NCBI RefSeq assembly: GCF_012979235.1
Contig: NZ_JAATWC010000011.1
Coordinates: 1-64,000 of the forward strand
Direction of reading: 5' to 3'
Source: Dissulfurirhabdus thermomarina
GTDB lineage: Bacteria > Desulfobacterota > Dissulfuribacteria > Dissulfuribacterales > Dissulfurirhabdaceae
Length of the DNA stretch: 64,000 bases
Shown: positions 25,534-47,186 of the stretch, in pieces
Layout: every line of letters starts with the position of its first letter
Numbering within the stretch: the stretch's first letter is position 1
Made by a program: the position numbers and the translations under genes
Notes under the pieces: model-generated
Databases searched by the model: none
What the model saw: the letters and a program-made list of their open reading frames with translations, nothing else
Told to the model about the DNA's origin: nothing

Positions 25534-26135
25534 GACCCCGTGGTGGCCCAGTCGGAATCGGGGGGCTCGCCATGCTCCTCCTCGGCGTCCTCGGCATCGG
25601 CATGCTGGCTGCCGCCTGCGACCCGGTCACCCGACACGAGGTCCTCTCCACGGTCTTCGACGGGGTCCCGGAGCTGCCGCCGGCCGAGGAGATGTGCGAG
25701 GCCTACGCCCGCCGCAAGGTGGCCGAGGCCCTGGCCCCGCCGAAGTCCGAGGCCGGGGAGGCCGCGAAACCGGCCGAGCGGCGCTCGAGCCACCGGCCCT
25801 ACGCGGAAAAACGCTGCACCGACTGCCACGACTTCAGCACCCGGGTGGGGCTCCTCCATCCCCGCACCGAGCTCTGCTTCACCTGCCACAAGGGCTTCGT
25901 CCGGGGCCCCTTCGTCCACGGTCCCGTGGCCGTGGGCGACTGCCTCGCCTGCCATCTCCCCCACACGTCTCCGAACCCGGCCCTCCTCCGCGAGGACCGG
26001 ACCGCCATCTGCCAGAGGTGCCACCGGGAGGAACGGCTGGCGGCGGCCCTGCACCGGAAGGTGGTGGAACACGGCATGAACTGCGTGGACTGCCACGATC
26101 CGCACTACGGAGATGCCCGGTATTTCCTGAGATGA
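25530..26135 (+). CDS. pentaheme cytochrome lipoprotein
   Basis: 201 residues. Signal/lipobox-like LLGVLGIGMLAAAC, so probably a lipoprotein. The N-terminal third is heme-free and partly helical (EEMCEAYARRKVAEAL). Five CXXCH motifs follow: CTDCH, CFTCH, CLACH, CQRCH and CVDCH, ending in HDPHYGDARYFLR. GTG start overlapping the upstream stop. Placed just before the outer-membrane barrel gene, it fits the periplasmic-side cytochrome of a porin-cytochrome conduit. Confidence 0.85.
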   Translation: MRPRGGPVGIGGLAMLLLGVLGIGMLAAACDPVTRHEVLSTVFDGVPELPPAEEMCEAYARRKVAEALAPPKSEAGEAAKPAERRSSHRPYAEKRCTDCHDFSTRVGLLHPRTELCFTCHKGFVRGPFVHGPVAVGDCLACHLPHTSPNPALLREDRTAICQRCHREERLAAALHRKVVEHGMNCVDCHDPHYGDARYFLR

Positions 26136-26150
26136 TCCCGGGAGGCACCC

Positions 26151-28115: not shown

Positions 28116-28146
28116 TGCGGCTCGATGCGGCCACGGGAGGCAGGCG

Positions 28147-28686
28147 GTGACCGGGCGGGACCGGGCGGTCTTCGCCCTGCGGCTCGCCGCCCTGGCCCTG
28201 GCCGGGGTGGCCGGCACCGCCGTGGGCCTCTACCTCGCCCTGGACCGGGGGCTCGGCGGGGACTACGCCACGGCCTTCTCGGTGCTGGACGAGGTCACCC
28301 GCAGCCTCCGGCGGCTGCTGGCCGCCTCGGCGGCCGTCCAGGCGGGCCTCCTCGGGGCGGTGTTCCTGCCGGCGGCGATTTGGTGGACGCACCGCGTGGC
28401 CGGGCCGCTCCACCGGTTCCGCGCCCTTCTCCGGGCCCTCGGGCCGGCGGGGTCCGAGTCCCGGCGGCTGGGGCCCTTCCGGGGAAACGACCGCTACCGG
28501 GAGATCCCCCGCCTCTGGAACGCCGGCCTCATCCGGTGGGAGTGGTTCCTCCGGTCCGCGGCCGGGGAGATACGGGCCATCGGGGAAGCCCTCCCGGGCA
28601 CCGGTGTGAACGCCGCGGCGCTCGCGGAGGTCCGGGAGCGCCTCGACCGCCTGGTGAAGGAGATGGAACGCCATGCCGGCCGCTAG
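28147..28686 (+). CDS. two-span membrane protein with HAMP-like segment
   Basis: 179 residues. Span 1 about 10-32 (LRLAALALAGVAGTAVGLYLAL), a short periplasmic loop, span 2 about 58-80, then WWTHRVAGPLHRFRALLRAL, which resembles the start of HAMP linkers (HRIAGPLYR). It ends with a helical stretch. No output domain (kinase, methyl-accepting or cyclase) follows. Such small proteins recur in cytochrome clusters, but their function is unknown to me. GTG start; overlaps the 7-heme gene by 14 nt. A second, similar protein is at 29503. Confidence 0.7.
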   Translation: MTGRDRAVFALRLAALALAGVAGTAVGLYLALDRGLGGDYATAFSVLDEVTRSLRRLLAASAAVQAGLLGAVFLPAAIWWTHRVAGPLHRFRALLRALGPAGSESRRLGPFRGNDRYREIPRLWNAGLIRWEWFLRSAAGEIRAIGEALPGTGVNAAALAEVRERLDRLVKEMERHAGR

Positions 28687-29506
28687 GCGGTGCGCCGTCC
28701 TGCCGCTGGCGGCCCTGGCGGTGCTGGCGGCCTGGACCCTGCGCTGCCGCCTCGAGACCCGGCAAAACCCGCACGAGGGAAGCATGGACTGCCGCACCTG
28801 CCACATCACCCGCCCGGAACCCGGCGGCCCGAACCTCTTCGCCAGGGACATCGAGGCCCTCTGCCGCGGCTGCCACCCCGACGTCCGCCTCGGGCGGACC
28901 CATCCCGTGGCCGTGGCCCCCACCTTTGCGCTGCCGGCGGACCTCCCCCTGGACTGGAAGGGCGAGATGACCTGCACCACCTGCCACTTCATGCACCTCG
29001 ACACCCGGCGGCCGGCGGGCGGAACGGCCGGCGGCCTCCTGCGGCGCGCCACGCGGGGGCGCCGCTTCTGCCTGGAATGCCACGGGCGGGCCGGGGGGCT
29101 TCCGGGGCGCCGGGGCCACAGCCTGGCCGCCGGCAAGGCCCACGAAGCCCGCGGCTTCCGGGTGACCGCCCCGGGTTCACCCTTGGACCGGGCCTCCGCC
29201 GCCTGCCTCACCTGCCACGACGGATCCATCTCGCCCGATACCGGCAACGTCCGGATCGGCAGCGGGATCTGGCGGCACGGGCCGCCTCCGGGGCGGTCCG
29301 TCAGCCACCCGGTGGGGGTCGACTACCGGCCCGGCCGCCGGCGCGCCGCCGCCCTCCGGCCGAGGGCGGCACTCCCGGCCTACATCCGCCTGCCGGGCGG
29401 AAGGGTGGAATGCCTCACCTGCCACGATCTCTATTCCCGGAACGACCACCTGCTCGTGGTCTCCAACGAAAGGAGCCGGCTGTGTCTCACCTGCCACGAG
29501 AAGTGA
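28673..29506 (+). CDS. heptaheme c-type cytochrome
   Basis: 277 residues. An N-terminal hydrophobic segment (about 8-22), either an uncleaved anchor or a signal peptide, then seven CXXCH motifs: CRTCH, CRGCH, CTTCH, CLECH, CLTCH, CLTCH and CLTCH. The end, ERSRLCLTCHEK, resembles the OmcE-like termini encoded in the same operon. Probably a periplasmic or membrane-anchored relay. SD AAGGAG 10 nt before the ATG. The next gene overlaps its stop (GTGA). Confidence 0.85.
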   Translation: MPAARRCAVLPLAALAVLAAWTLRCRLETRQNPHEGSMDCRTCHITRPEPGGPNLFARDIEALCRGCHPDVRLGRTHPVAVAPTFALPADLPLDWKGEMTCTTCHFMHLDTRRPAGGTAGGLLRRATRGRRFCLECHGRAGGLPGRRGHSLAAGKAHEARGFRVTAPGSPLDRASAACLTCHDGSISPDTGNVRIGSGIWRHGPPPGRSVSHPVGVDYRPGRRRAAALRPRAALPAYIRLPGGRVECLTCHDLYSRNDHLLVVSNERSRLCLTCHEK

Positions 29507-30093
29507 CCGCCGCGCCGCCGCCCGCCGGCCGCCGCCGGACCCGCCTTGTGGACCGGCGCCTCCAGCTCTCCCTCGGCCTCGCCCTGGCCGCCGCCTGCGC
29601 GGCCGTGGCCGCCGTCACGGCCACGGCCGGATACCGGGTGCTGAAGGAGGCCCTGGAGGCGTGCCTCTACTGCCCCCACATCAAGGCGGACCGGTGCGGG
29701 GAGATCCTGGGGCCGGCCTTCTTCCGGGTGAACCTCGCCGCGGCGGCGGCCACGGCCGCGGCGGCGGCCGGGACGGCCGTCTGGCACGCCCGCCGCCTGG
29801 CCCGGTCCATGGAGCGCTTCCTGCCCCACCTGCGCGCCTGGAGCCGGTCGGGCCGCCCGGTGCCGGTCCCGGCGCGACCCGGCGACCCCCTCCTCCCGCT
29901 CCTGGACGACTACAATGGGGCCATGGGGCGCCTGCGGGCCCGGGCCGTCCGGGCCCGGCGGGCCCTCCTGGAGGCGCGCCGATACCTCGCCGCGGCGGAG
30001 GCCGCCCGGAACGACCCGGCCGGCGCCGCCCACGCCGCCCGCCGGCGGCTCGCCGCCGCCGCGGCCGCCCTGGAAGGAGACCTGCCGTCATGA
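29503..30093 (+). CDS. second two-span HAMP-like membrane protein
   Basis: 196 residues. Span 1 about 22-45 (LSLGLALAAACAAVAAVTATAG), a periplasmic loop with CLYCPHIKADRCGE (three cysteines, no heme motif), span 2 about 74-92, then a basic amphipathic HAMP-like region and a long helical Ala/Arg-rich tail. Partly like the protein at 28147, with more cysteines outside. GTG start overlapping the upstream stop, and its own stop overlaps the NHL lipoprotein start (ATGA). Confidence 0.65.
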   Translation: MTAAPPPAGRRRTRLVDRRLQLSLGLALAAACAAVAAVTATAGYRVLKEALEACLYCPHIKADRCGEILGPAFFRVNLAAAAATAAAAAGTAVWHARRLARSMERFLPHLRAWSRSGRPVPVPARPGDPLLPLLDDYNGAMGRLRARAVRARRALLEARRYLAAAEAARNDPAGAAHAARRRLAAAAAALEGDLPS

Positions 30094-31139
30094 TGCGACG
30101 ATTCCGCCGATGGGCCCGGCCCCTCTTGATCGCCGCCGTCCTGGCCGCCTGCGGCCCCATGCAGCGGACCGAGGCGCCGCCCGGTGCCGCGGAACTCCTC
30201 TGGCCGGCACCCCCCGCCGCCCCCCGGATCCGATGGGTGGGGGAGATCCGGGACCCCCGGGACGCCGGCGTCCGTCCCGGCCTCTGGGACCGGGTGAAGA
30301 ACTTCCTGCTGGGGGGGGAGAAGGGTCGGATCGCCCGGCCCTACGGGGTCCTCCACGACGAGGCGGACCGGCTCTTCGTGGTGGACGTGGCGGGACGGGC
30401 CGTCCACTGCATGGACCGCGGCCGGGGCCTGGCCGTCACCGTCCCCCGGCGCCGCGAGGACAACCCCCTCGCCAGCCCCATCGGCATCGCGGAAGACGCC
30501 TCCGGGCGGGTCTTCGTGACCGACTCCGAGACGGGCCGCATCTACGTCTTCACCCCGGGCGAATGGGTGCTCCGGCCCTTCACCCCCTTCCGCCTGGGAC
30601 GTCCCACCGGCATCGCCTGCGGCACGGACCGGGGCCTGATCTACGTGGCCGACACCACCGCCCACGAGGTGGTGGCCCTCGGCCCGGACGGGCGGCCCCG
30701 GTTCCGGTTCGGGGGGCGCGGCACGGGCCCCGGGCGGTTCAACTTCCCCACGGACCTCTGGGTGGACCGGGAGGGGCTTATCTACGTGACCGACGCCCTG
30801 AACGCCCGTATCCAGGTCTTCGACCCCGAGGGCCGGTTCCTCCGCCAGATCGGCCGGCCCGGGAAAAGCCCCGGCTGCTTCGCCAAGCCAAAGGGCGTGG
30901 CCGTGGACGGCGAGGGCCACGTTTACGTGGCCGACGCCCTCTTCGACGCGATCCAGGTCTTCGACCGGGAAGGCCGGCTCCTCCTGGTCTTCGGCGAGAG
31001 CGGCCACCGGCCCGGTGAGTTCTGGATGCCCTCGGGGCTCTTCATCGACGCCGAGGACCGCATCTACGTGGCCGACACCTACAACCGGCGGATCCAGGTC
31101 TTCCAGTACCTGGACCGTGACGCCAACGGGTACGAGTGA
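30090..31139 (+). CDS. second NHL-repeat lipoprotein
   Basis: 349 residues. Lipobox VLAACG near residue 20, then six or so NHL blades such as YGVLHDEADRLFVVDVAG, IGIAEDASGRVFVTDSETG, DLWVDREGLIYVTDALNA and VAVDGEGHVYVADALFD. Paralogue of the protein at 24394, and like it adjacent to a cytochrome with OmcE-type motifs. That suggests each OmcE-type protein has its own propeller partner. ATG overlaps the upstream stop. Confidence 0.86.
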   Translation: MMRRFRRWARPLLIAAVLAACGPMQRTEAPPGAAELLWPAPPAAPRIRWVGEIRDPRDAGVRPGLWDRVKNFLLGGEKGRIARPYGVLHDEADRLFVVDVAGRAVHCMDRGRGLAVTVPRRREDNPLASPIGIAEDASGRVFVTDSETGRIYVFTPGEWVLRPFTPFRLGRPTGIACGTDRGLIYVADTTAHEVVALGPDGRPRFRFGGRGTGPGRFNFPTDLWVDREGLIYVTDALNARIQVFDPEGRFLRQIGRPGKSPGCFAKPKGVAVDGEGHVYVADALFDAIQVFDREGRLLLVFGESGHRPGEFWMPSGLFIDAEDRIYVADTYNRRIQVFQYLDRDANGYE

Positions 31140-31140
31140 T

Positions 31141-32802
31141 ATGGGCCCCATGAAACCGGCACCACCGCTCCGCGTGGTCCTCCTCGCCCTCGGGGCGCTT
31201 CTCGCGGCCGCCGGCCCGGCCCCGGGCGGCGACGTGGTCCACAGCCCCCACAACCTCTCCGCCAGCGGCGGCGGCGGCCTCCACGACCTCAAGGCCCCGG
31301 AGGAGAAACGGGTCTGCATCTTCTGCCACACCCCGCACCACGCCACCCACGTCACCCCGCTCTGGAGCCGCGAGCTCTCCACCCGGGTCTACGACCTCTA
31401 CCGGTCCTCCACGCTCAAGGCCGCCCCGGGCCAGCCCACGGGGGCCTCCCGGCTGTGCCTGAGCTGCCACGACGGCACCATCGCCCTGGGCCAGCTGAAC
31501 GGCAGCTACACCATCAGCACCCTGGGGCCCATCCCGCCCGGCCCCACCAACCTGGACGACCCCGAGCACTCCCTCCGGGACGACCACCCCATCTCCTTCG
31601 CCTACACGCCGGACCTCGCCCTGGGAAACGAGCTGGCGGACCCCTCGCTCCTGCCCGCCCGGGGCATCAAGCTGGAAGGCGGCCGCCTCGAGTGCACCGC
31701 CTGCCACGACCCCCACGACAACCGGTACGGCAGATTCCTGGTGATGGATGACACCGACTCCCGCCTCTGCATCCAGTGCCACGAGAAGACCGGATGGGAC
31801 CAGTCCCTCCATCCCCATCCCCAGGACGCCCTGGCGGCGCCGGTCTTCTGCGAGGCCTGCCACGCGCCCCACAACGCCGACCAGCCCGTCCGCCTCCTCC
31901 GGGGCGTGACGGAACAGGCCACGTGCCTGGCCCGGTGCCACAACGGGAGCGGCAACGGCACCGACGTCTCCGGCCTCTTCGGCGCCGCGGTGGCCTCGTC
32001 CCATCCCCTCGACTACGCCGAGGGGATCCACGACGCGGCGGAAGACCCCCTCGCCGCGCCGAAGCACGTGGAATGCGCCGACTGCCACAACGGCCACAGA
32101 GTCAAGGACCAGGCCGCCGTCCCGCCGGCGGTGGAGGGCGCCCTGGTGGGCGTCTCGGGCGTGGACATCACCGGGTCGGTGGTGGCGGAGGCGAGCCGGG
32201 AGTACGAGGTCTGCTTCCGCTGCCACGCCGACAACTCCTTCGTCTCGTCCACCGCGGTGCCCCGGGCCCTCCAGGAGGTGAACGAGCGGCTCCGGTTCGA
32301 CCCCGCCAACCCCTCCTACCACCCGGTGGCCGCCATGGGGCGGGGAACCAACGTGCCGAGCCTCCGGCCGGAGTACACCACCTCCAGCCTCATCTACTGC
32401 ACCGACTGCCACAACAGCGACCAGAGCGCCAAGGCCGGAGGCGCGGGGCCCGACGGGCCCCACGGCTCCAACTTCCGGCATATCCTCATCGCCCGTTACG
32501 AGGCCGACACCTACCCCCTCCCCTACAGCGAGGGCGACTACGCCCTCTGCTTCCGGTGCCACGACCCGGCCGTGCTCCTCGGCCCGGGATCGGCCTTCCC
32601 CAAGCACGGGCTGCACGTGGTGAGCCGGGGCGTCCCCTGCTCGGTCTGCCACGACCCCCACGGCGTCCCGGTGGCCGACGGCGCGACCCCCAGGGCCAAC
32701 GCCCACCTCGTGAACTTCGACACCCGGTTCGTGCCCTTCGGCACCTACGACGCCCAGGCCCGGAGCTGCACCGTGAGCTGCCATGGCACCAAGTCCTACT
32801 GA
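31141..32802 (+). CDS. dodecaheme cytochrome with OmcE-like N-terminal module
   Basis: 553 residues, with a signal peptide. Residues about 35-220 repeat the OmcE-like order: CIFCHTPHH, PLWSREL, YRSSTLKA, CLSCHDGTIA, DDHPISFAY, CTACHDPHDN and CIQCHEK. Residues about 225-553 add eight more motifs: CEACH, CLARCH, CADCH, CFRCH, CTDCH, CFRCH, CSVCH and CTVSCH, two of them CX3CH. Total twelve. It could cap or anchor a filament of the tetraheme protein through its shared head (inference). Starts 1 nt after the NHL stop; ATGs at 31141 and 31150 are both possible. Confidence 0.85.
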   Translation: MGPMKPAPPLRVVLLALGALLAAAGPAPGGDVVHSPHNLSASGGGGLHDLKAPEEKRVCIFCHTPHHATHVTPLWSRELSTRVYDLYRSSTLKAAPGQPTGASRLCLSCHDGTIALGQLNGSYTISTLGPIPPGPTNLDDPEHSLRDDHPISFAYTPDLALGNELADPSLLPARGIKLEGGRLECTACHDPHDNRYGRFLVMDDTDSRLCIQCHEKTGWDQSLHPHPQDALAAPVFCEACHAPHNADQPVRLLRGVTEQATCLARCHNGSGNGTDVSGLFGAAVASSHPLDYAEGIHDAAEDPLAAPKHVECADCHNGHRVKDQAAVPPAVEGALVGVSGVDITGSVVAEASREYEVCFRCHADNSFVSSTAVPRALQEVNERLRFDPANPSYHPVAAMGRGTNVPSLRPEYTTSSLIYCTDCHNSDQSAKAGGAGPDGPHGSNFRHILIARYEADTYPLPYSEGDYALCFRCHDPAVLLGPGSAFPKHGLHVVSRGVPCSVCHDPHGVPVADGATPRANAHLVNFDTRFVPFGTYDAQARSCTVSCHGTKSY

Positions 32803-32925
32803 ACGGACGTCCGCCGGGAGGCCGGAGAAGATGCGAGGCGGAGGGGGCCCGGGCCGCCGCCGTGACGCACAGCCAGAGGCATCGCCGCGACGCCAATCGC
32901 GGCGCCATGAGAAGGAGGTCGTTCC

Positions 32926-34116
32926 ATGAACCGGTTCCTCTCCCTTACCGTCTTCCTGGCCTTGTCCATGGCCGCGCCCGCCACGGGCGCCGCCCCGGCG
33001 GCCGCCCCCCCCGGGAAACCGGCCGCCGGAACCGCCCGTCCCAGGCCCTGGGAACCCCGGGAACGCGTGAAGATCCGGGACAAGAGCGGCTACTGCATCG
33101 AGTGCCACCGGGAGAAGACGCCGGGCCTCTTCCGGTCCTGGGTGGAGGGCCCCCACGCCCGGATCGGCGTCGGCTGCAACGACTGCCACGGGGCCTCCCC
33201 CTCGGACAAGGACGCCTTCCTCCACCAGCAGCGCTTCTACATCACCACGGCGGTCACCCCCTTCGACTGCGCCCGCTGCCACCCGGACGCCATCCGCGAC
33301 TTCTACAACAGCGGCCATGCCGAGGCCCGGATCCGCCTCGAGAAGATGGGGCCGGACGACCCCCGGTACCCGCTCGTGGCCCCTTACCGGGACGGCGGCT
33401 TCGCCGAATGCGCCGGATGCCACGGGGCCAGGGTCCGCCTCGACGAGGACCGGCGACCCGGCCTCGGCACCTGGCCCAACGCCGGGATCGGCCGCCTCAA
33501 CCCGGACGGGAGCCGCGGCAACTGCGCCGCCTGCCACCCGGCGCACCGCTTCGCCGCAGAGGACGCGCGGCGGCCCGAGGCCTGCCTCGGCTGCCACGAC
33601 GGGCCCGACTACCCCGAGGGGGCCATCTACCTCCACTCCCCCCACGGCCGGGTGGCCGGCATGGGCCGGGCCCGGGACGACCTCTCCCGCCCCGGCTTCT
33701 TCTGCGACACCACCCGGTACGAGGGGCCCACCTGCGGCCTCTGCCACTTCAACGGGGCGGGCCGCGACCTCGTCACCCGACACAACCCGGCATGGCGGCT
33801 CACCAGGGACCTCCTCCACCCGGAGGCGCCCGAGAAGGGCCGGCCCGAGGACCTCCGGGGAAACATGGATCGCGTCTGCCAGCAGTGCCACGCGGCCTCC
33901 GTGGTGAAACGCTTCTTCGCCTCGGCCGACGAGAAGCTCGCCCGCTACCAGTCGGAGACCGTCCGCCCCAGGCTCGCCGGGTTCCGGAAACGGCTGAAGC
34001 ATGCCCGCGGGAAGAAGCGACGGCGCCTGCTGGAGGAATACGGCGCCTTCCTCCGGGAGGCGAAGGCCTTCCGCCTCAACCTCTACATGGGGGTCCACGG
34101 CAGGTCCGGGCGCTAG
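32926..34116 (+). CDS. octaheme cytochrome, hydroxylamine-oxidoreductase-like
   Basis: 396 residues, with a signal peptide (about 1-22). Eight CXXCH motifs: CIECH, CNDCH, CARCH, CAGCH, CAACH, CLGCH, CGLCH and CQQCH. The motif spacing, YNSGHAEARI, SPHGRVAGMGRA and TCGLCHFNG with RHNPAWRLT before the eighth heme recall the HAO-type octaheme family found in many anaerobes, where the enzyme may work as a reductase. I see no obvious tyrosine cross-link site, but that needs alignment. The C-terminus is a basic helix (FRKRLKHARGKKRRRLLEEY). Last gene of the operon; the 123-nt gap before it shows no promoter. Confidence 0.72.
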   Translation: MNRFLSLTVFLALSMAAPATGAAPAAAPPGKPAAGTARPRPWEPRERVKIRDKSGYCIECHREKTPGLFRSWVEGPHARIGVGCNDCHGASPSDKDAFLHQQRFYITTAVTPFDCARCHPDAIRDFYNSGHAEARIRLEKMGPDDPRYPLVAPYRDGGFAECAGCHGARVRLDEDRRPGLGTWPNAGIGRLNPDGSRGNCAACHPAHRFAAEDARRPEACLGCHDGPDYPEGAIYLHSPHGRVAGMGRARDDLSRPGFFCDTTRYEGPTCGLCHFNGAGRDLVTRHNPAWRLTRDLLHPEAPEKGRPEDLRGNMDRVCQQCHAASVVKRFFASADEKLARYQSETVRPRLAGFRKRLKHARGKKRRRLLEEYGAFLREAKAFRLNLYMGVHGRSGR

Positions 34117-34574: not shown

Positions 34575-37500
34575 ATGAGGAGGAAGAGAGGAAGGCAGTG
34601 CCTCGTCCCGGCCGGGATGGCGCTCGCCCTGGGCCTGGCGTTCTCCATGCCGCCGCCCGGCGCCGCCATGGCCGCCGTCCCCGAGCACGCGCACATCGTA
34701 CTCCGGGACCACCTCGGAAACCCCATCAGCCCGTCCGCCGCCACCGACAACGCCTTCAGCGTGAAGGGGACCTGCGGCTGCTGCCACGACGGCACCAACG
34801 GGCTCCTCTCGTACGACGAGTTGGAGCGCCACTCCTACCACGCCCAGCTCGCCGCCAACGAGATCCGCGGCTGGAACGCCTGGAACCCGGACTCCCCGGA
34901 CAAGTTCCGGAGCGGTCCCGCCGCCAAGGGGAAGAACTGGGTCCAGAGCCCCGGCCACGTGGGGAAGTGGTGACCGCCGTCGGCGCGCCAGATGGCGAGG
35001 CTGTTCCTGGACGGAGCAGGATCTTCCTACAACGCGACCACGGCCACCTACCTCGACAACCCCTTCACCACCATGACGCCGTACGACTACGGGAGCCTCC
35101 TGGAGTTCCAGCGCCGGGTGGACAACTCCATCCCCGGCCAGATGCGGGACTGCGGTGAATGCCACGCCGGCGGCGGGGCCATGGAGTACGTGCCGGCGCC
35201 CACGCCCGGCGCCCGGGTGCCGCTCCGTGACATCGCCACGGCCGACGTCAACGGGGCCGGCCCCATCACCGCGGCCAACGTGACGGCCTTCAACTACTAC
35301 GTGGACATCTACGACGACGACGGGGACGGCAACCGGTCCGAGGTCCTCTACAACGACTTCACCCAGACCGGGGTCCTCGAGTTCGACTGCCTCCTCTGCC
35401 ACCTGGAGGGTTACGACTGGGAGGCCCGGAAGGAGGCCGTCCGCCACGGCAACTTCGATGCCTCGCGCACCGTGGGGGCCGGGCTGGGGATCCTGGCCGG
35501 CACCAACGGCCGGAGCGTGGTCTACGATCCCTCCCTGGTGGAGGACAACGGGACCGTGCTCAAGCTGGGTCTCTCCGTGGCGGCCAGGATCATGCCCACG
35601 CCGCCCACGGCCAACTGCGCCTCGTGCCACTTCGACGCCCACCAGGTGGACTGGAAGAAGCGCGGCGACGTCTGGGCCGGAAACGCCCTGAACGAGGTGC
35701 ACCTGTCCATCGGCTGCATGGGCTGCCACAAGCGCAAGGACGAGGACTTCTCCAACGTGGGCACCGACGGGGCCCCGTCCAGCACCCTGCTCGGCCAGTG
35801 TGACCCGGCCAAGGGAGACGCCCCGTACAGCTCCCTCTGGAACAAGACCGACAACACCGTGAAGACCTGCGCGGACTGCCACCTCCGGGGCGGCGACGGC
35901 GGCCAGAGCTTCGCCGCGCCGAACCCCGCCAACGCCCACGCGGCGGCGGGGCTCACCGCCAAGGTGTGCCAGGACGGCACCGACGGAGTGGCGGACGCGA
36001 GCCACATCGACATCATCGCCTGCTCGGCCTGCCACGTCCGCAAGCTCAACCTCGGCGGGCCCTTCACCGGGGGTGCCCTGGTGGACGCCACCGGCCCGGA
36101 TGCCGAGGGCCGCCTGGCCGACCACGAGAACCCCTACGTCACCCGCACCATGGAACGCAACGTTGCGGTCTCCTGGTACAAGGGGAGACTCGTGGCCTCC
36201 AACATCCTGACCACCCTCTTCTGGCGGGACAAGAACGACGTGGACTTCGACGCCAACCGCGACGGCCGAGCCGGCGGCATGGACGCCCTCCTGCCCACCC
36301 ACGTCCGGACCATCGACGAGATCTACGGCGTGGGACCGGTCACGGAGGACGGCAACGTCTCCGGTGCCGAGCTCGACCAGCGAATCGCCCAGATCGACGC
36401 CGAGATCGAGGCCCTCACCGGGGTCTCCGGCGCCGCCAAGATCACGCGCCTCTCCTTCATGGCCGTGCCCTTCCGGGTGAACCACAACGTCTCGCCGGCC
36501 TGGGCCGCCTGGGGCGCCGGGGGCTGCGGCGACTGCCACGCCCCGGGGGCCGGCTTCTACAACGGCGCCTACCGCCTCAAGGGCGAGGGGCTCGAGGTGA
36601 GCTTCGGCGGCCAGGTGACGCCCTTCACCAAGGCCAACGCCTTCACCGACCCCACGGACTTCCACCCGAACCTCAAGGACAAGGCCGGGGTCCGCTCCAT
36701 CCCGGTGAAGGCCGCCTTCCAGCAAGGAACCCTCCGCGACGTCGACCGGAGCGAACTCCTCTACGAGAACACCTTCAAGACCCGGAACACCGCCTGGGCG
36801 GACAGCCTCACCAGCGCGCCCATCACCTTCCCCGACGGGACCACGGCCACCACCAAGGGCTGGCTCTTCAAGGTGGAGGCCAAGGACCTCTTCACGGGTG
36901 ACGTGGTGACCCGGAGCAAGATCGTCGGGACCCATGCCGCCAACGTGGACGAGCTGGTGGCGGCCCTCGGCCCGGCCTACACCGACAACCTGCCGGAGTT
37001 CACGGTGACGGCCGACAACGCCACCGGCACCATCACCATCGCGGCGAAGCCCGGCTACCGGGTCCGGCTCCACCCGCAAAGCAGCGCGGGGGCCTTCGGC
37101 ATGGCGGGGGCGGTCTGGACGGACCACCCGGTCACCGCCGTGAACGGCACGGCCTTCGCGGGCCGGGCCGACTGGGTGGCCTACCTCGACCGCCAGAACG
37201 ACCCGGCGGCCGTGGGGATCGGCATCGACCCCGTGGCGGTGATCGCAAGCATCAACGGCATCGTCCCAGATGCCAACGGCACCCCCATCGAGGTGGAAGT
37301 GGGCCAGCCCGTGACACTCGCGGCCGACACCACCGTGAACACCGCCGGCACCTTCACCTACAGCTGGATCTCCAGCGACGCGGCGGGGGAGGTCCTCCCC
37401 GGGGCCACGGTCTCGAAGACCTTCTCCACCGTGGGCACCTGGCTCGTCACCCTCAAGGTCACCGACGAGGAGGGAAAGCTCTCCCAGGTCTCCCAGAAGG

Positions 37501-37808
37501 TGAGCGCGGTGGCGCCGGCACCGGCGGCGGACATCTCCTACGTGGGCACCGCAAGCGGCGTCCAGACCATCCGCTTCGCCAACCTGCCCGCCCACACCAT
37601 GCTCTACATCTTCTGGGGTGACGGGCTGAAGTCACGGGTCTACGACACCACGTCCCCCAAGGACGTGGACCACGACTTCCGCCTCTACGCCAAGTACGAC
37701 AAGGGCGACCACTACGAGTTCAAGGTCACGGCCTACGTCTACGACGGCAGCACCCGGGTGGACGTCAAGCAGGCGGTGATCTCCATACCCAAGGCCGACA
37801 ACCCCTAA
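34575..37808 (+). CDS. selenocysteine-containing octaheme cytochrome 1 with PKD-like domain (reads through TGA)
   Basis: Predicted 1077 residues if TGA 34971-34973 is read as Sec133. The TGA splits two exactly in-frame halves (34575-34970 and 34974-37808). The second half has no ribosome-binding site. N-terminus: good SD, signal peptide, first heme CGCCH (67-71). Around the TGA the frame reads GKW-U-PPSARQ. Then come CGECH, CLLCHLEGYD, CASCH, CMGCH, CADCH, CSACH and CGDCH, giving eight hemes. D359-W-K-K362-R-G resembles the Asp/Lys pair near the active heme of octaheme tetrathionate reductase. From about residue 881 there are two PKD-like beta domains (TFTYSWISSD; FWGDG). It could be called a pseudogene if Sec were ignored, but a paralogue with the same TGA and a Cys homologue argue against that. 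Substrate unknown. Confidence 0.85.
34971..35014 (+). promoter_or_regulatory. selenocysteine TGA with SECIS-like hairpin
   Basis: TGA at 34971-34973, then 16 nt, then a four-base loop AGAT (34990-34993) closed by CGCC/GGCG (34986-34989 with 34994-34997). CCGTC at 34977-34981 can pair with GACGG at 35010-35014 as a lower stem. The distance from the TGA to the loop is identical to that in the second gene and close to the E. coli fdhF SECIS. Pairing by eye; the apical stem is short. Confidence 0.62.
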
Positions 37809-37904: not shown

Positions 37905-38609
37905 TCAGCCCGCCCCCGGCTCCTTCCAGAGGTCCAGGTCGACGAGGCCGATCCGGGCGGCGTAGCGGACGAGCTCCATCTGGCTGTGGACGCCGAGCTT
38001 CCCCATGAGGTTGCTCCGGTGGTTCTCCACGGTCTTCGGCTTGATGTGGAGACGCGCGGCGATCTCCCGGGAGGGGACCCCCTCCACGATGAGCCGCATG
38101 ACCTCCTGCTCGCGGCGGGAGAGGAGGCCGTAGCGGTCGTCCCGCACCCGCGAGGCCCGATCCGGGGCCTCGAGGAGCCGCCCCAGGACCTCCCGGGAGA
38201 CCGCCCCGTCGAGGAAGTGCTCCCCGGCCAGGAGCGCGTCGAGGGCCTGGATGAGCCGTTCGCCCGTGGCCTCCTTCACGATGTAGCCGTGGGCCCCCGC
38301 CCGAAAGGCCGCGGCGATGTACTCGAACCGCCCGTGCATGCTGACCACCAGGATGCGGGCCGAGGGGGCGGCCCGGCGTAGCCCCCCGATGAGCTCGTGG
38401 CCGTTGGCGTCCGGGAGGGCGAGGTCCAGGGTCACGAGGTCGGGACGGAGGGCGGCGGCCAGGTCCAGGGCCTCGCGCCCGGTCCCGGCCTCTCCGGCCA
38501 CCTCGAAGCGCCCGCTCCGCCGGATGAGGGCCTTGAGCCCTTCCCGGAAGAGCGGGTGGTCATCCACCAGGAGGACGGTCGGCTGCTTGGATTCCACGTC
38601 GTTCTCCAC
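37905..38609 (-). CDS. NarL/LuxR-type response regulator
   Basis: 234 residues. Receiver VLLVDDHPLFREGLKALI with phospho-acceptor Asp in LVTLDLALPDANG and Lys in YIVKEATGE. C-terminal LuxR helix-turn-helix LSRREQEVMRLIVEGVPSREIAARLHIKPKTVENHRSNLM. GTG start at 38609, 50 nt inside the kinase gene; a later GTG at 38597 is also possible. With its kinase it sits between two selenocysteine cytochrome genes, convergent to the first and divergent from the second. Confidence 0.92.
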   Translation of the reverse strand: MENDVESKQPTVLLVDDHPLFREGLKALIRRSGRFEVAGEAGTGREALDLAAALRPDLVTLDLALPDANGHELIGGLRRAAPSARILVVSMHGRFEYIAAAFRAGAHGYIVKEATGERLIQALDALLAGEHFLDGAVSREVLGRLLEAPDRASRVRDDRYGLLSRREQEVMRLIVEGVPSREIAARLHIKPKTVENHRSNLMGKLGVHSQMELVRYAARIGLVDLDLWKEPGAG

Positions 38610-40023
38610 CGTTTCTGCGGACGGCCCGGACGGGCTGGAACGGGACCTCCACCGAGACGAGGGTGCCCCCGCCCGGGCGCGAGACCACCCGGAAGCTCCC
38701 CCGGAGAAGATCCACCCGCTCGGCCATCCCGGCGAGCCCCAGGCCGAAGCGGGCCTCCCGGGAAGCGGCCGCCACGTCGAACCCCCGGCCGTCGTCCTTG
38801 ACCTGGAGCCGGAGCACCGGGTGCGTCGCCACCATCCGGACGCTGACCCGGCGGGCCCCCGCGTGCTTGACCACGTTGTGGAGCGCCTCCTGCACGATGC
38901 GGAAGAGGTTGATGGCGGTCTCCTCGTCCACCCGGACCCCGGCCATGCCGGCGGTCTGGAAGTCCACCCGCAGCCCGTGCCGCTCCGAGAGCTTGCCGCA
39001 GTACTCCGCGAGTCCCTCCACCAGGCCGAGTCGCTCCACCGCCGCGGGACGGAGGCCGGAAGAGAGCTCCCGCACCGCCCGGATGGAGCCCTCCACGTCC
39101 TCCCGGAGCCGGGCCGCCTGCTCCCCCAGGGGAGAGGCCGCCCCCCCGAGGTCCTCGTGCAACATGTCGAGGCCGATCTTGACGGCGTTCAGGCGCTGGC
39201 CGAGGTCGTCGTGGAGCTCCCGGGAGAGCCGGCGGCGTTCCGCCTCCTGGAGGGTGAGGAGCCGCCGCGACAGCGCCCGGGCGCGCTCTTCCATGGCCTT
39301 GCGAGCGCTGATGTCCCGGGCCACCACCAGCTTGGCGGGCCCTTCCACGCCCGGCATCCGGACGGGAAGCTCGGCCACCGAGAACCAGGCGCCGCTCCGC
39401 CGGTCGCGGCACTCCCAGTGGAAGGCGCCCCCGGGGGTCAAGGTGCCGGGCGGATGGCAGTCGGGGCAGGGCCGCGTCCGCCCCCAGCAGGCCCGGTAGC
39501 AGGGAGACGCGGCCAGATCCGCCCGGGCGTCCTCCTGCATGCGCCGGTTGGCGAAGGCGATCCGGTAGCCCGGGCCCACCACGTAGACACGGTCCTCCAT
39601 GGCATCGAAGAGGAGGGACAGGGTCCGCTGGGAGGCCGCCATGACGTCGGAGATGCGCTTGCACTCCGTGGCGTCGTGGAGGACCCCCATGACGGCGGCC
39701 CCGCCGCCCATGGCCACGCGGCGGGCCCGCACCTCGATCCAGAAGGGATCCCCGCCCCGCCGGCGGGAAGGCTGGCCCCAGGCGACCTCCTCCGAGACAC
39801 CCGACAGGAGCCTGTCGTGGTTCTCCCGGAAGAAATGGGCGCTCGAGGGGTCCGGGTAGACCTCGCCGAGGAAGTCCCGGCCCGCCAGGCAACGGCCGGG
39901 GTCGAGGCCGAAGACCTGGGAGAAACGCGGATTGGCGAAGAGGAGCCGGCCGTCGCGGACCACGTAGAGGCCGTCGGGAAGGCCGTCCGCCACGGCCCGG
40001 AAGAGCGCGTCCCGTTCCGTCAT
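38560..40023 (-). CDS. cytoplasmic PAS-PAS histidine kinase (NarX-type HisKA_3)
   Basis: 487 residues without membrane spans. PAS 1 about 5-125 (LYVVRDGRLLFANPRFSQVFGLDP). PAS 2 about 135-260, which contains a cysteine cluster SPCYRACWGRTRPCPDCH with a CXXCH at its end. HisKA_3 has ERRRLSRELHDDLGQRLNAV (phospho-acceptor His) and the ATPase domain has FRIVQEALHNVVKHA, DDGRGFD and GLGLAGMAERV. It partners the downstream regulator. The cysteines could sense redox state or bind metal; c-type heme is unlikely in the cytoplasm. ATG start at 40023. Confidence 0.9.
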   Translation of the reverse strand: MTERDALFRAVADGLPDGLYVVRDGRLLFANPRFSQVFGLDPGRCLAGRDFLGEVYPDPSSAHFFRENHDRLLSGVSEEVAWGQPSRRRGGDPFWIEVRARRVAMGGGAAVMGVLHDATECKRISDVMAASQRTLSLLFDAMEDRVYVVGPGYRIAFANRRMQEDARADLAASPCYRACWGRTRPCPDCHPPGTLTPGGAFHWECRDRRSGAWFSVAELPVRMPGVEGPAKLVVARDISARKAMEERARALSRRLLTLQEAERRRLSRELHDDLGQRLNAVKIGLDMLHEDLGGAASPLGEQAARLREDVEGSIRAVRELSSGLRPAAVERLGLVEGLAEYCGKLSERHGLRVDFQTAGMAGVRVDEETAINLFRIVQEALHNVVKHAGARRVSVRMVATHPVLRLQVKDDGRGFDVAAASREARFGLGLAGMAERVDLLRGSFRVVSRPGGGTLVSVEVPFQPVRAVRRNGGERRGIQAADRPPGG

Positions 40024-40138
40024 CTCGCCCCGGCGTCTCCTCACCCACCCCAGGACAGTGTGCCCCAAGGCGGCCCGAAAGTCAAAAGGAATGGATATAT
40101 CAGAAAATTTCGCACATTCCGGCCCCTTTTCCCGCCTT

Positions 40139-40172
40139 GCGGGAAATCCCGCCCACCTGGGCCATATACCCC
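40139..40172. promoter_or_regulatory. paired inverted repeats upstream of selenocysteine cytochrome 2
   Basis: GCGGGAAATCCCGC (40139-40152) and GGGCCATATACCCC (40159-40172), centres 20 bp apart (two helical turns), about 200 bp upstream of the sigma-54-type promoter. GGGCCATAT also occurs at 23225. The 671-nt gap 40024-40694 carries no gene that I can support. Confidence 0.42.
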
Positions 40173-40361
40173 GTGATATGCCGCGCCGCAAACGCGATTC
40201 CACCCGCGAGTCACCCCCATCCTTCCCGGGAACCTGGGGCGGTCACCCCATGAAGCTCCGGGCGGCGGCCTTGCCGGCCGGCGGCGGCCGGCCCCTGGAT
40301 CCCCGCGGGGACGGGGCCTTCGAGCCACCGCCCCCCCGGCGGCCGCCGCCGGGTCTGGGGG

Positions 40362-40694: not shown

Positions 40695-43600
40695 ATGGAC
40701 ACGAGACGAGGACACCGGGCCTCGGGCCTGTGGCTCGCCGGGAGCCTCCTCGCGGCCTTCGTGCTGGTGGCCGGGACGGCCTTCGCGGCCCATCCCCCCA
40801 TCCAGCTCAAGACCTACGAGGAGCTCGGCGCCATGGACGTCGGCCCGAACATGCCCCTTCCCTACAGCCCGAAGCAGACCTGCAGCACCAGCGGCTGCCA
40901 CGACGGCACCACCGTGGTGAACGGAAAGGTGCTGCTCAGCTACGGCGACATCGAGGCCCATGCCTTCCACTCGCAGCTTGGGAAAGACGAGTGGAAGGAC
41001 ACCGCCGACGGCCAGTTCGACTTGACCGCCAGCAAGCCCTGGAATCAGACCGGGGCCATGTTCGGCAAGTGGTGACCGCCGTCCCTTCGCCAGGTGGCGA
41101 ATTTCATGGATCAGGATCCGGCGACCCCGGGCGTCCAGGACAAGGTCTACGCGGACAACGCGAGCTTCCTGGGCGCCGTGGACATGGCCGCGTGGGACAT
41201 GGCCATGGCCTGCGGCAGCTGCCACGTCGGCGGCGGGTTCGTCGAGAGTGACCGGAACGGCCAGCGGCTCTCCATCCGGGCGCTCACGGACACCACCATC
41301 AACGCCTACATGAACTACGTCTCCGAGGACTGGGACCCGGCCACGGGCCTTCCCAACTTCAGCGTCAAGCGGGCGCCCTGGACCTACCCGGTGGAGCTCG
41401 ACGGCAACACCAGCACCACGGAATGGATGCCCAACGTCCGCGAGATGGACTGCTTCTTCTGCCACCTCGAGGGCTACAACAACATGATGAGCTCGGTCAT
41501 CGTCCAGATGGGCCTCCTGAACGCCGCCCCCATGGCGGGTTCCGGCCTCATGGACATGGCCACGGGCGGCTACAACACGGCCATGGTGGACGCCAACGGC
41601 ACGCTGCTGCCCTGGGTGCTGGACCGGATCAAGGGCACCCCGCCCAGCGACAACTGCCGCCAGTGCCACATCCCGCAGTCCATGGCGACCCTGGCGGACA
41701 TGATGACCAACTTCCTGGCCGCGGCCCCCATGTCGTACAACCCGGCCAATCCCATGTCGCTCACGGGTCTCGAGATGCCGGCCTACGACTTCGACGCACC
41801 GTGGGTGGACGGGACGGGACCGCTCTACTTCAACGCCAGCGACCAGAACGCCATCAAGAAGGCCATGGTGCCCTTCCCGCGCTCCGACTTCTTCAAGCGG
41901 GGCGACATCTGGGACGACGCGAGCCAGGAGGTCCACATCGGGCTCGGGTGCGCGGGCTGCCACATGGACACCGCCTCCCTGAGCCCCGACATGACCCAGT
42001 GCGACCCGGGGAGAGGCTACGGCCGCCTCTCAGGCGTCCGGCCCTCGTCCAGGAACACCGTCAAGCGGTGTGAGCACTGTCACATCACCGGGAAGAACGC
42101 CGACGGCGTGCCCATCCAGACCTTCGGCGCGCCCGACCCCACCCCCGCCCACAAGGCGGCGGGGTTGACGGCCCTCATCACCACGGCCGTGGGCGTCAAG
42201 GACGACGGAAACGGCACCCCCGTGGAATACACCTTCCCGGGCAGCCACCTCGACGTCATCGACTGCACCGTCTGCCACAACCACAAGAAGAGCATGGCGG
42301 TGCGGGCCCTCGACGCCACCAGCGGCAACCGCTACCCCACCATGATCGGGTTCGATCTCTCCAAGGGCATGCTCGGCATGTTCTCCGCGCCGGATCCGTG
42401 GGGGATGTTCGGCGGCGAGCTCCAGGAATGGACCCCGCTCCGGACCTGGTGGCAGAACGGCGACAAGACGCTGCCCGACGGCTCCATCAACACCGCGTGG
42501 CGCCGGAAGATCTACAACATCAACATGATCACCGCGGTGTTCTGGAACAACCGGGACCCCTCGGTGGACGCCAACGGCGACGGCGCCAACGCCACGCCCA
42601 CCAACTTCGACCCGTGGATCCAGCGTGACCTCAAGGCCGGGATGACCTTCGCGGCCAGCGGCTTCGCGCCCATCCCCGTCGGCTTCGGCAGCGATCCTGC
42701 CTACGCCAGCGCCTACGACGCCAACGGCACCTTCACGGGCGCCTGGGACTGGGTCGGCGTCTACGGCGGCAACGTCATCTTCACCCGCCCGGACCAGATC
42801 GCGGCCTACAAGGCCTACCGGACGAGCCTCGGCGGGAAGCCCTGGGACGGCACCGAGCTCCTCTACTTCGGGGCCCCGTTCCAGGTCACCCACAACATCG
42901 CCGACACCAGCCGCTTCGCCCTGGGCAAGCGGCGGGCCGACGGCAGCTACGGCTGCAGCGACTGCCACGCGCCGGGCGCCGGGTTCTTCGACGGCGACTA
43001 CGACATGACCGGAAACGGCGTCAACGCCAGCAAGGTGGGCGCCAACATGATGATGGAGCCCGCCGCCGACTTCGAGGTGACCGGCTACAAGGGGGACCTC
43101 CGGACCGCGTCGGAGCTCCAGACCAAGGACGGCGCGGGTGCCGATCTCCCCTTCGAGGCCAACGTCACCTGCCCGGACAACGACCCCCGCGGTTGCGTCC
43201 AGACCACCGACATGGACCGCGGCGAGGCCCTCTACCCGCACCTGGCGGAGACCGACCCCGCGGGATTTGCGGCCAAGCGGGCCTACCTCACGGACAACGC
43301 CACCATGACGGCGGCCAACTACGGGATCGGCATCGACCCCGTGGCGGTGATCGCGAGCATCAACGGCATCGTCCCAGATGCCAACGGCACCCCCATCGAG
43401 GTGGAAGTGGGCCAGCCCGTGACACTCGCGGCCGACACCACCGTGAACACCGCCGGCACCTTCACCTACAGCTGGATCTCCAGCGACGCGGCGGGGGAGG
43501 TCCTCCCCGGGGCCACGGTCTCGAAGACCTTCTCCACCGTGGGCACCTGGCTCGTCACCCTCAAGGTCACCGACGAGGAGGGAAAGCTCTCCCAGGTCTC

Positions 43601-43916
43601 CCAGAAGGTGAGCGCGGTGGCGCCGGCACCGGCGGCGGACATCTCCTACGTGGGCACCGCAAGCGGCGTCCAGACCATCCGCTTCGCCAACCTGCCCGCC
43701 CACACCATGCTCTACATCTTCTGGGGTGACGGGCTGAAGTCACGGGTCTACGACACCACGTCCCCCAAGGACGTGGACCACGACTTCCGCCTCTACGCCA
43801 AGTACGACAAGGGCGACCACTACGAGTTCAAGGTCACGGCCTACGTCTACGACGGCAGCACCCGGGTGGACGTCAAGCAGGCGGTGATCTCCATACCCAA
43901 GGCCGACAACCCCTAA
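40695..43916 (+). CDS. selenocysteine-containing octaheme cytochrome 2 with PKD-like domain (reads through TGA)
   Basis: Predicted 1073 residues if TGA 41073-41075 is Sec127. The ATG at 40695 is 9 nt after AGGAG; the ATG at 40689 is too close. Signal peptide, then heme 1 as CX4CH (CSTSGCH), then GKW-U-PPSLRQ, CGSCH, CFFCHLEGYN, CRQCH, CAGCH, CEHCH, CTVCH and CSDCHAPGAGFF. D398-F-F-K401-R-G-D parallels the motif in cytochrome 1. PKD-like region from about residue 877, essentially identical in DNA to cytochrome 1. The reading frame is uninterrupted on both sides of the TGA and no SD precedes the second half. Likely exported; function unknown, reduction of a sulfur or nitrogen oxyanion is a guess from the family. 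Confidence 0.85.
41073..41104 (+). promoter_or_regulatory. selenocysteine TGA with SECIS-like hairpin
   Basis: TGA at 41073-41075, 16 nt, then loop AGGT (41092-41095) closed by TTCGCC (41086-41091) and GGCGAA (41096-41101); A-T closure would leave GG as the tip. A G-rich tip at this distance is what SelB recognises in E. coli fdhF. Better paired than the copy at 34971. Confidence 0.68.
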
Positions 43917-44216: not shown

Positions 44217-47186
44217 ATGGCGAAGAAGATCCTTTTTCTCCTTGTGCTGGCCTGCTCGGTCCTTCCGCCGGCGAGCCGGCTGGCTCTGGCCGACCATCCC
44301 GTCTACGGGGAAGACCCCCGGATGCCCGACCAGATCTACCTCGTCGGCAGGGGCGGCGCCCTGGTGAGCCTCGACGATCCGGCCGACGGGACCTACGACG
44401 GCCTGCCCCCCTACGACCCGGAGGCCACCTGCCGCGGCTGCCACGGTTCCATCTTCAACAACGAGGTGGCCAACTTCCATGCCTGCCTCGGGTGCAACGA
44501 CCTGGTGCTCCCCCGCGGCACCCTCGACCCCGCCCGCCCGTGGATCTTCGGTCCGAGGAAGTTCGGCGGGTGGTGCCCCACCGGTTTCCGGCAGTGGGGC
44601 GACATCACCAAGACCTTCGCCAGCGAGGCGGAGTTCCTGGCCCAGGTGGACATGGGCTTCTACGACTTCATCCTCCAGTGCGGCACCTGCCACGTGGGCG
44701 GCGGCCCGGGGGTGCGCCACCCGCTGACCCTGGCCGAGCACGACGACGTCAACCGGGACCTCTTCTCCCTCACCGTCCAGAACTACTACGTCAAGGACGG
44801 CAACGTGACCCTGGCCAACTGGGTGCAGCTCGGCGGGGGCGGCGCCGGGACCCTGAAGCTCGACTGCCTGGTCTGTCACCTGGAGGGTTACGACATCCTG
44901 GCGAGGAACGAGCAGATCGTCCGGTACGAGAAGTTCAAGAACGCCCCGACGCTGGGGGCGGGCCTGGCCGCCATGGACCCCGCCGCGCCGGACGGCGCCA
45001 GCATGGCCTACGACGCCTTCTACGTGGCGCGCAACGGCAGCAACCACCTCTACCTCGGGCGGAACTTCCTCCAGCGGATCAAGCGCACACCGCCCTCCGC
45101 CAACTGCCTGAACTGCCACATGCCCAGCGTGGTGGAGGGGGAAGACGCGGCGGTCTCCGGTGACGCCTGGAAGCGGGAATTCTTCAACACCGGCACGGTC
45201 CCCAGCGACGACCCCGAGAACCCCGATCCCCTGGCCGCCGCCAACAGGCGCCCGGCCGGCTTCCGCAACGACTTCCTCAAGCGGGGTGCCACCTGGCGCA
45301 CCGACGAGGTGCACAAGTTCATGGAATGCAGCGGCTGCCACCTCCAGACCGCCAAGTTCCAGACCGACAACGCCACGGCCCCCGGCTACCTCCACAGCCC
45401 GGGCAAGGGGTACGACCCCTTGAAGGATCCCATTGGCGGCGAGGGAACGGTCAAGTTCTGCACCGACTGCCACGTCCTCTTCGGAGACCTCGACGGCGAC
45501 GGGGTGAAGGACATCGAGATCTTCGCGCCGCCGGACCCGCGGCCGCGGCACGCGGCGGCGGGGCTCTCCGCGGCCATCATCGGGACCGCCCGCCGGATCG
45601 GGGCCAACGGGCAGGAGGAGACCTTCCGCGGCAGCCACATCGACGTGATCGCCTGCACCGTCTGCCACGTCTGGAAGCAGTACACGGCGGCCCGGGCCTA
45701 CGACTTCAGCACCGGCGGCCGCTTCTACACCTTCGACGGGAACCCGCCGGACGTGGCCGGCGGCCCGGAGACCGTGACCATCGCCTACACCTGGCGCGAG
45801 AACACCCCCGTCCGGGTATTGCCCGACGGCTCGCCGAACCCCATGTGGCGCCGGCAGGTCCATCCCTTCAACTACGTCACCTCCATCTACTGGAACAACA
45901 CGGGCACCAAGGACGCCAACGGCGACGGCTTCCGCTCCGGGGACTCCAACGGCGGCACCACCGTCCTCCTCGACCCCTTCTTCGGCCGGGTGGCCCGCTC
46001 CCACTTCCGTTACGACTTCGTCAACACCGCCAACGACCGGGTGCCCAGCGGGCTGGCGGGGGTCCCCGCCTACGACGAGCGCAGCGAGTGGGCCATGGCC
46101 AACGCGGCCGGCGGGGTCATGTTCACGCGGCCCGGGGAGATCGACGCCTACCAGGCCCTTCTCTCCGGCGAAGACCCCGGCTACGCCCCCCAGCTCCGGC
46201 TGGAGGCGAAGCCCTACCTCCTGGTCCACAACGTGATGCCCATCAAGGGGCCCAACGGGCACGTCCTCGGCAAACCCGTCCGCGACGACGCGGGCAACAT
46301 AGTGGCCTACGGCTGCGGCGACTGCCACGGACCCTCCGGGGTCGTCTACAACGGGGAGGTGAACCTCCTCGGCAAGGGCATCGACATCGCCACCGGCGCG
46401 GAGGCCCCCCTCGCGCTCTCCTGGAGCGATCCGGGCGACGTCTCCGCCGAGGCCGAGTACTGGGATGCGTTCGGCAACCGCCACGTGCTGGACTGCACAT
46501 CGGGCAGCACGCTCCGGAACCCGAGGCGCTACGAGCTGTTGGGATTGTCCGCCACCGAGGCGGCCGGCCTGGACCTAGTCACCGCGGCGGACAACGGGAT
46601 CGGGGTGGACCCCGTGGCGGTGATCGCGAGCATCAACGGCACCGTCCCCGACGGGAGCGGCACCCCCATCACGGTCCGGGTGGGCGAGCCCGTGACGCTC
46701 GCGGCGGACACCAGCGTGAACACCGCCGGCTACATCGACTACGGATGGATCTCCAGCGATGCGGCGGGGGAGGTCCTCCCCGGGGCCACGGTCTCGAAGA
46801 CCTTCTCCACCGTGGGCACCTGGCTCGTCACCCTCAAGGTGACCGACGAGGAGGGAAAGCTCGCCCAGGTCTCCCAGGAGGTGAACGCCGTCAACCTACC
46901 GGCGGCGGACATCTCCTACGTGGGAACCGTAAGCGGCGTCCAGACCATCCGCTTCGCCAACCTTCCGGCCCACACCATGCTCTACATCTTCTGGGGGGAC
47001 GGGCTGAAGTCACGGGTCTACGACACCGTCTCACCCAAGGACGTGGACCACGACTTCCGCCTCTACGCCAAGTACGACAAGGGCGACCACTACGAGTTCA
47101 AGGTCACGGCCTACGTCTACGACGGCAGCACCCGGGTGGACGTCAAGCAGGCGGTGGTCTCCATCCCCAAGGCGGACAACCCCTGA
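44217..47186 (+). CDS. octaheme cytochrome 3, cysteine paralogue of the selenoproteins
   Basis: 989 residues, uninterrupted. Signal peptide, heme 1 CRGCH, a degenerate CLGCN, then GGW-C120-PTGFRQ where the other two have the TGA. Then CGTCHVGGG, CLVCHLEGYD, CLNCH, CSGCH, CTDCH, CTVCH and CGDCH (eight CXXCH in all). D352-F-L-K355-R-G is conserved. PKD-like domains from about residue 794 are related to, but not identical with, the other copies. GGGAGAGGAG precedes the ATG. Motif order (Cys/Sec before heme 2, DxxK after heme 4) fits the octaheme tetrathionate reductase family. This gene fixes the reading of the TGA codons in its neighbours. Confidence 0.9.
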   Translation: MAKKILFLLVLACSVLPPASRLALADHPVYGEDPRMPDQIYLVGRGGALVSLDDPADGTYDGLPPYDPEATCRGCHGSIFNNEVANFHACLGCNDLVLPRGTLDPARPWIFGPRKFGGWCPTGFRQWGDITKTFASEAEFLAQVDMGFYDFILQCGTCHVGGGPGVRHPLTLAEHDDVNRDLFSLTVQNYYVKDGNVTLANWVQLGGGGAGTLKLDCLVCHLEGYDILARNEQIVRYEKFKNAPTLGAGLAAMDPAAPDGASMAYDAFYVARNGSNHLYLGRNFLQRIKRTPPSANCLNCHMPSVVEGEDAAVSGDAWKREFFNTGTVPSDDPENPDPLAAANRRPAGFRNDFLKRGATWRTDEVHKFMECSGCHLQTAKFQTDNATAPGYLHSPGKGYDPLKDPIGGEGTVKFCTDCHVLFGDLDGDGVKDIEIFAPPDPRPRHAAAGLSAAIIGTARRIGANGQEETFRGSHIDVIACTVCHVWKQYTAARAYDFSTGGRFYTFDGNPPDVAGGPETVTIAYTWRENTPVRVLPDGSPNPMWRRQVHPFNYVTSIYWNNTGTKDANGDGFRSGDSNGGTTVLLDPFFGRVARSHFRYDFVNTANDRVPSGLAGVPAYDERSEWAMANAAGGVMFTRPGEIDAYQALLSGEDPGYAPQLRLEAKPYLLVHNVMPIKGPNGHVLGKPVRDDAGNIVAYGCGDCHGPSGVVYNGEVNLLGKGIDIATGAEAPLALSWSDPGDVSAEAEYWDAFGNRHVLDCTSGSTLRNPRRYELLGLSATEAAGLDLVTAADNGIGVDPVAVIASINGTVPDGSGTPITVRVGEPVTLAADTSVNTAGYIDYGWISSDAAGEVLPGATVSKTFSTVGTWLVTLKVTDEEGKLAQVSQEVNAVNLPAADISYVGTVSGVQTIRFANLPAHTMLYIFWGDGLKSRVYDTVSPKDVDHDFRLYAKYDKGDHYEFKVTAYVYDGSTRVDVKQAVVSIPKADNP

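Follow-up and report, generated by a model that had tools for sequence, protein, structure and literature searches.

In octaheme tetrathionate reductase (OTR) of Shewanella oneidensis (PDB 1SP3, TIGR04315), Lys153 reportedly ligates heme 2, with Cys64 near the same heme. Some members of this family carry selenocysteine (Sec, U); one of these Sec-OTRs, WP_331457571.1, is given as annotated in GenBank (PMC13188914). Sec-OTR loci matching TIGR04315 (L113-L140) are also widespread in the phylum Thermodesulfobacteriota, with U at the Cys64 site in an NNF-U motif. A second described system, ExtKL/MccSep (NF040886; PDB 9wt8-9wtc, U325), is likewise a multiheme cytochrome c with one Sec encoded by UGA; we infer from length and family that MccSep is ExtKL. 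Among multiheme cytochromes, a 2026 review of prokaryotic selenoproteins lists ExtKL and the TIGR04315 type and no others. Here we describe a locus in the thermophilic sulfur disproportionator Dissulfurirhabdus thermomarina (Dissulfuribacterales), contained in an analysed stretch of 64,000 nucleotides (the window). It carries two genes for octaheme cytochromes c, P0001 and P0002, each with one in-frame TGA. We put the probability that these codons are decoded as Sec and, jointly, that the products have an OTR-like architecture at about 0.93, a figure that applies to decoding and architecture and not to a catalytic step or substrate.

Three paralogous cytochrome genes and their surroundings

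The P0001 start codon is preceded by a strong Shine-Dalgarno (SD) sequence (ggagaggagg-caacc-ATG), the frame ends with TAA at 37806-37808, and the TGA is its single internal stop. The original prediction held that the frame is the same on both sides of the TGA, that the second half lacks an SD sequence, and that a signal peptide and heme 1 lie before the TGA, with seven hemes and PKD-like domains after it. The frame is indeed otherwise open, and no SD sequence was seen upstream of the next ATG (34992), which lies six codons past the TGA within a predicted hairpin. One CXXCH motif (CGCCH, residues 67-71) precedes the TGA and seven follow, as described, and there is one PKD domain (residues 900-971). 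GC3 is 0.91 before the TGA and 0.94 after it, and coding sequence flanks the in-frame UGA on both sides, as in bacterial selenoproteins.

A whole-genome search returned two relatives of P0001, both in the same window and both missing from the original prediction: the second TGA gene, P0002, and a paralogue with cysteine at the site, P3. A three-way alignment places U, U, and C in one column between invariant W and P residues. Such a Sec/Sec/Cys trio within one genome comes close to textbook evidence for Sec. Heme 1 of P0002 (residues 63-69, window positions 40881-40901) has the spacing CSTSGCH in place of CXXCH, and P3 has a near-motif, CLGCN, after heme 1. The PKD regions, which make up the last ~200 residues (37140-37808, 43263-43916, and 46587-47186), are identical in P0001 and P0002 and ~90% identical in P3, whereas the heme domains of the three proteins are only 36-38% identical. 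This difference suggests that the C-terminal domain was recently duplicated or homogenized by gene conversion.

A regulator and a sensor kinase are encoded between the two Sec genes, and a run of cytochrome and NHL-repeat genes lies upstream (Table 1). In the middle of this run, an open reading frame on the forward strand (26151-28115, 654 residues) had no Pfam or NCBIfam match; it may possibly encode the outer-membrane barrel of an electron conduit. The cytochrome/NHL run and the sensor-regulator pair suggest an inducible, extracytoplasmic respiratory role.

Table 1. Features of the D. thermomarina locus, in window coordinates
Feature	Coordinates	Strand	Description
Upstream cluster	21624-34116	+	Multiheme cytochromes, NHL-repeat proteins, one matchless ORF
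Cluster multiheme cytochromes	21624-22991, 25530-26135, 28673-29506, 31015-32802, 32926-34116	+	
Cluster NHL-repeat proteins	24331-25533, 29915-31018	+	
Sec octaheme cytochrome c 1 (P0001)	34575-37808	+	1077 aa; signal peptide, 8 CXXCH, C-terminal PKD domain
P0001 in-frame TGA, putative Sec133 (U133)	34971-34973	+	Motif GKW-U-PPSARQ
P0001 SECIS-like hairpin	34983-35000	+	Loop AGAT 34990-34993; core stem CGCC 34986-34989 / GGCG 34994-34997
P0001 Lys362 codon (WKKRG)	35658-35660	+	Aligned with heme-ligand Lys153 of OTR 1SP3
NarL/MctR-like response regulator	37905-38609	-	Between the two Sec genes
NarX/MctS-like PAS sensor histidine kinase	38560-40203	-	Between the two Sec genes
Sec octaheme cytochrome c 2 (P0002)	40695-43916	+	1073 aa; alternative in-frame ATG 40689; heme 1 is CX4CH
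P0002 in-frame TGA, putative Sec127	41073-41075	+	Motif FGKW-U-PPSLRQ
P0002 SECIS-like hairpin	41086-41101	+	UUCGCC-AGGU-GGCGAA, loop 41092-41095
Third paralogue (P3), Cys form	44217-47186	+	989 aa, no internal stop
P3 TGC (Cys) at Sec column	44574-44576	+	FGGW-C-PTGFRQ; hairpin absent

Relation to octaheme tetrathionate reductase and proposed function

An hhalign comparison with OTR gave 99.5% probability over hemes 4-7, and a full-length profile alignment of OTR with a compact homologue (L036) showed all eight CXXCH motifs to be collinear. The AF2 model of L036 (pLDDT 82.5) had 1SP3 as its sole significant PDB match (E 8.9e-7), with modest TM-scores of 0.35 and 0.47. Eight collinear hemes and the overall OTR fold were thus found on the compact homologue; the AF2 model of the P0001 core (pLDDT 53) was too poor for use, and a PDB search with P0002 alone gave no match. 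In the alignment, the invariant Lys of a KKRG motif stands opposite OTR Lys153 (1SP3 numbering). The Sec shares the heme 1-heme 2 interval with the Cys64/Sec of OTR without residue-for-residue alignment; in compact members it precedes heme 2 by ~30 residues, versus 10 for Cys64. A direct superposition of Sec on Cys64 was not supported by the global profile alignment.

The signal peptides indicate that the products would be exported, as eight-heme c-type cytochromes with a C-terminal PKD domain. By analogy with OTR, we infer that catalysis would take place at heme 2, with the invariant Lys (K362) as its ligand in place of the second His, and that Sec133, on the loop that links hemes 1 and 2, may lie close to this site and act as a redox-active nucleophile or ligand. 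The remaining hemes would wire this site to the adjoining multiheme cytochrome cluster. The most likely role is that of an OTR-like oxidoreductase outside the cytoplasm, with Sec close to a Lys-ligated heme; it would act in the periplasm or at the cell surface on a small oxyanion, sulfur, or selenium compound; the chances of an OTR-like enzyme with Sec at the heme are about even. As D. thermomarina is in culture and disproportionates sulfur, the protein is a concrete candidate for extracytoplasmic sulfur or metal chemistry, and we know of no enzymes assigned to such chemistry outside the cytoplasm there. A sulfur substrate is a tentative suggestion, for which polysulfide/S0, thiosulfate, or tetrathionate would be the best guess in a sulfur disproportionator. 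More speculatively, and rather doubtfully, the proteins may form an unrecognized selenoenzyme family that spans the phylum, has Sec working at a Lys-ligated heme on the surface of sulfur disproportionators and other Thermodesulfobacteriota, and carries out the initial redox reaction on polythionates or on elemental or zero-valent sulfur.

A competing account of the catalytic part, which leaves the Sec decoding untouched, sees the protein as a Sec-containing electron conduit of the MtrC/OmcA kind, in which the role of Sec is limited to tuning or protecting a heme, with no enzyme activity. The adjoining cytochromes and NHL proteins would suit a conduit, and the MtrC/MtrF profile PF22113 scores barely over its cut-off in P0001 (31.2 versus 30). 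However, the same profile falls under the cut-off in P0002 and P3, and the match to the OTR fold together with the aligned Lys suggests a catalytic heme. We consider a conduit possible but less probable than an OTR-like oxidoreductase.

It is improbable that the family is simply OTR proper, with no difference from the Sec-OTR of existing GenBank annotation. The two have the fold, the eight collinear hemes, and the Lys in common, and Sec-OTRs, with U at the Cys64 site and a hairpin of their own, are frequent in the same phylum. However, the TIGR04315 profile gives 25.1 bits for P0001, no match for P0002, and 38.5 bits for the best Sec homologue tested, against a cut-off of 375. The motif and hairpin also differ from those of Sec-OTR, several genomes carry both families (e.g., G008, G216, and G310), and the D. 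thermomarina genome has no OTR match at 1e-30.

Decoding of the in-frame TGA codons

P0001 and P0002 are almost certainly selenoproteins, as judged by comparative evidence. The D. thermomarina genome carries selA (603 bits), selB (378 bits), tRNA-Sec with a UCA anticodon (75 bits), and two copies of selD (382 and 361 bits), which is the full set that the original prediction had proposed to look for. One selD copy (contig C10, 60502-61425) has an in-frame TGA of its own in the motif CGUAAKIGP; the other, on contig C4, has no internal stop. In the wider set, selA was matched in 42 of the 46 genomes with a TGA homologue and in 33 of the 34 with a non-TGA form. The four TGA genomes without a match are all drafts (81-91% complete), and the single non-TGA genome without selA (G038) has Cys at the site. 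As nearly all genomes of the set carry selA, its presence indicates compatibility only and does not discriminate.

Of 395 genomes drawn from the phylum, 85 had a homologue, and 47 of these, D. thermomarina included, carried one with exactly one internal TGA. The TGA occupies the same site in every TGA homologue locus read, mostly in the motif GK/GR/GA-[WFY]-U. This constancy, together with the same-motif TGA in the paralogue 6 kb away, argues that the TGA of P0001 is not there by chance. Among the fetched loci, the Sec column holds U in 50 (the D. thermomarina loci are counted repeatedly), C in 12, S in 8, and other residues in 6. The 12 Cys rows belong to two subfamilies, so that Cys homologues exist at the UGA position. 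Named relatives with TGA at the site are Deltaproteobacteria M55B156 and ALJrbin.12 and Desulfobacteraceae SURF_33; the GMC6 relative has Cys, and relatives in Chloroflexi, Omnitrophota, and Hydrogenedentota have neither. The original prediction of Sec133 is therefore supported by both the Sec machinery and the homologues, which have TGA or Cys in the same column and continue beyond it; none was found to end there. At this column, Ser, Gln, Trp, Phe, Tyr, or Met is found in some of the homologues, so that the residue is dispensable in certain lineages.

In the host's order, 28 of 46 genomes have a homologue, most with TGA, among them an eight-heme type of ~1350 residues with the motif GAW-U-PPSYRQLA. 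A further family with this motif, of ~1130-1400 residues (L091-L094 and L099-L101), is common in the order. In another subfamily, with the motif GKF-U-PPSFRQLA, an FdhC-like membrane cytochrome b domain (L067:1414-3990; TIGR01583 136 bits, over cut-off) forms part of the protein, so that a Sec octaheme cytochrome is fused to a module that is likely quinone-reactive. Two loci (L057 and L059, family f16) have TCA (Ser) for TGA and retain a perfect 8-bp hairpin, UUCGAGUC-AGUU-GACUCGAA. We rejected a recoding of this TCA as Sec: in the relatives the position is taken by Trp, Phe, Gln, Met, or Ser and the hairpin breaks down, which is the pattern that loss would leave; these loci look like a recent loss of Sec with a fossil hairpin.

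The TGA genes share an AGNU-loop hairpin whose start lies 16 or 22 nt downstream of the UGA. Among 29 distinct hairpins, the 7-pair helix is 83% paired, compared with 34-64% for slid partners, and two-sided changes number 29, compared with a mean of 10 in shuffles (0/500). The family has a covarying SECIS-like downstream hairpin with a G among the first two loop bases. The codon overlapping the loop differs between Sec and Cys genes: where it encodes Leu, TTG is used by 43 of 43 Sec genes and by none of nine Cys genes, all of which use CTN, against a TTG background of 8% in the same genes. The D. thermomarina Sec copies have Met and Val there, still NTG. A Fisher test on the whole table gave a p value of 8e-9, which is indicative, as the sequences are related. 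For P0001, the minimum-free-energy fold of the full 50 nt is a competing structure without the conserved hairpin, which forms when a short segment is folded. Both TGA codons would thus be read as Sec by SelB with tRNA-Sec, presumably directed by the short hairpin 16 nt downstream.

That the TGA is a true stop, so that a 132-residue monoheme protein is made and a heptaheme protein of 938 residues has a start of its own, or else marks a pseudogene or sequencing error, is very improbable. The in-frame ATG shortly after the TGA would offer a start, but it lacks an SD sequence; the same TGA recurs in the paralogue and in dozens of other genomes, and the Cys homologues run through. In addition, the assembly of strain SH388 (2,461,642 bp, 71.1% GC) was reported at a coverage of 1384x (PMC7463578). 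Equally remote is a reading of the TGA as Trp, Cys, or another standard residue through a suppressor or changed code, since the flanking W and P and the frequency of Cys as a replacement are outweighed by the dedicated Sec machinery, the covarying hairpin, the lack of TTG in the loop of the Cys genes, and the use of TGA to close 20 of the 27 confident open reading frames in the window, which indicates that TGA is not reassigned.

Comparison with known selenium-containing multiheme cytochromes

The original prediction was uncertain whether Sec multiheme cytochromes of this layout had been described. Those of other layouts are known, namely ExtKL/MccSep and Sec-OTR, whereas no description of the P0001 type was found in a literature search of published, mainly open-access papers. 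Across the heme domain, none of the Sec relatives tested scored over the cut-off of any NCBIfam family, and NCBIfam has no name for the family described here. Under standard gene calling, each of these genes becomes two, and the first heme and the probable active site are hidden; with a TGA form in ~12% of the sampled genomes of the phylum (47/395), the family is probably misannotated. The Sec, Sec, and Cys paralogues side by side in D. thermomarina constitute a natural experiment on the contribution of selenium.

MmcA/methano7heme (TIGR04314) is locally similar from heme 3 on, at 36.6 bits far under the cut-off of 250, and has seven hemes according to the model name. The MtrC/MtrF outer-membrane cytochromes have ten hemes, compared with eight in P0001. 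ExtKL/MccSep differs in having five hemes in ~450 aa and its Sec after all hemes, in a C-terminal domain with the motif RAGHxIPDG-U, and a profile search with NF040886 gave no match in P0001. OTR is the closest system, with eight collinear CXXCH motifs, a Lys at the position of Lys153, and a Cys or Sec between hemes 1 and 2. However, the family described here has GK[WFY]-U-PP and the hairpin GCC-AGNU-GGC where Sec-OTR has NNF-U-I and CUGGUGC-AGGU-GCACCAG, and it has a longer core as well as a PKD domain or a cytochrome b fusion. The Sec octaheme family is distinct from both ExtKL/MccSep and Sec-OTR and adds a third kind of selenium-containing multiheme cytochrome.
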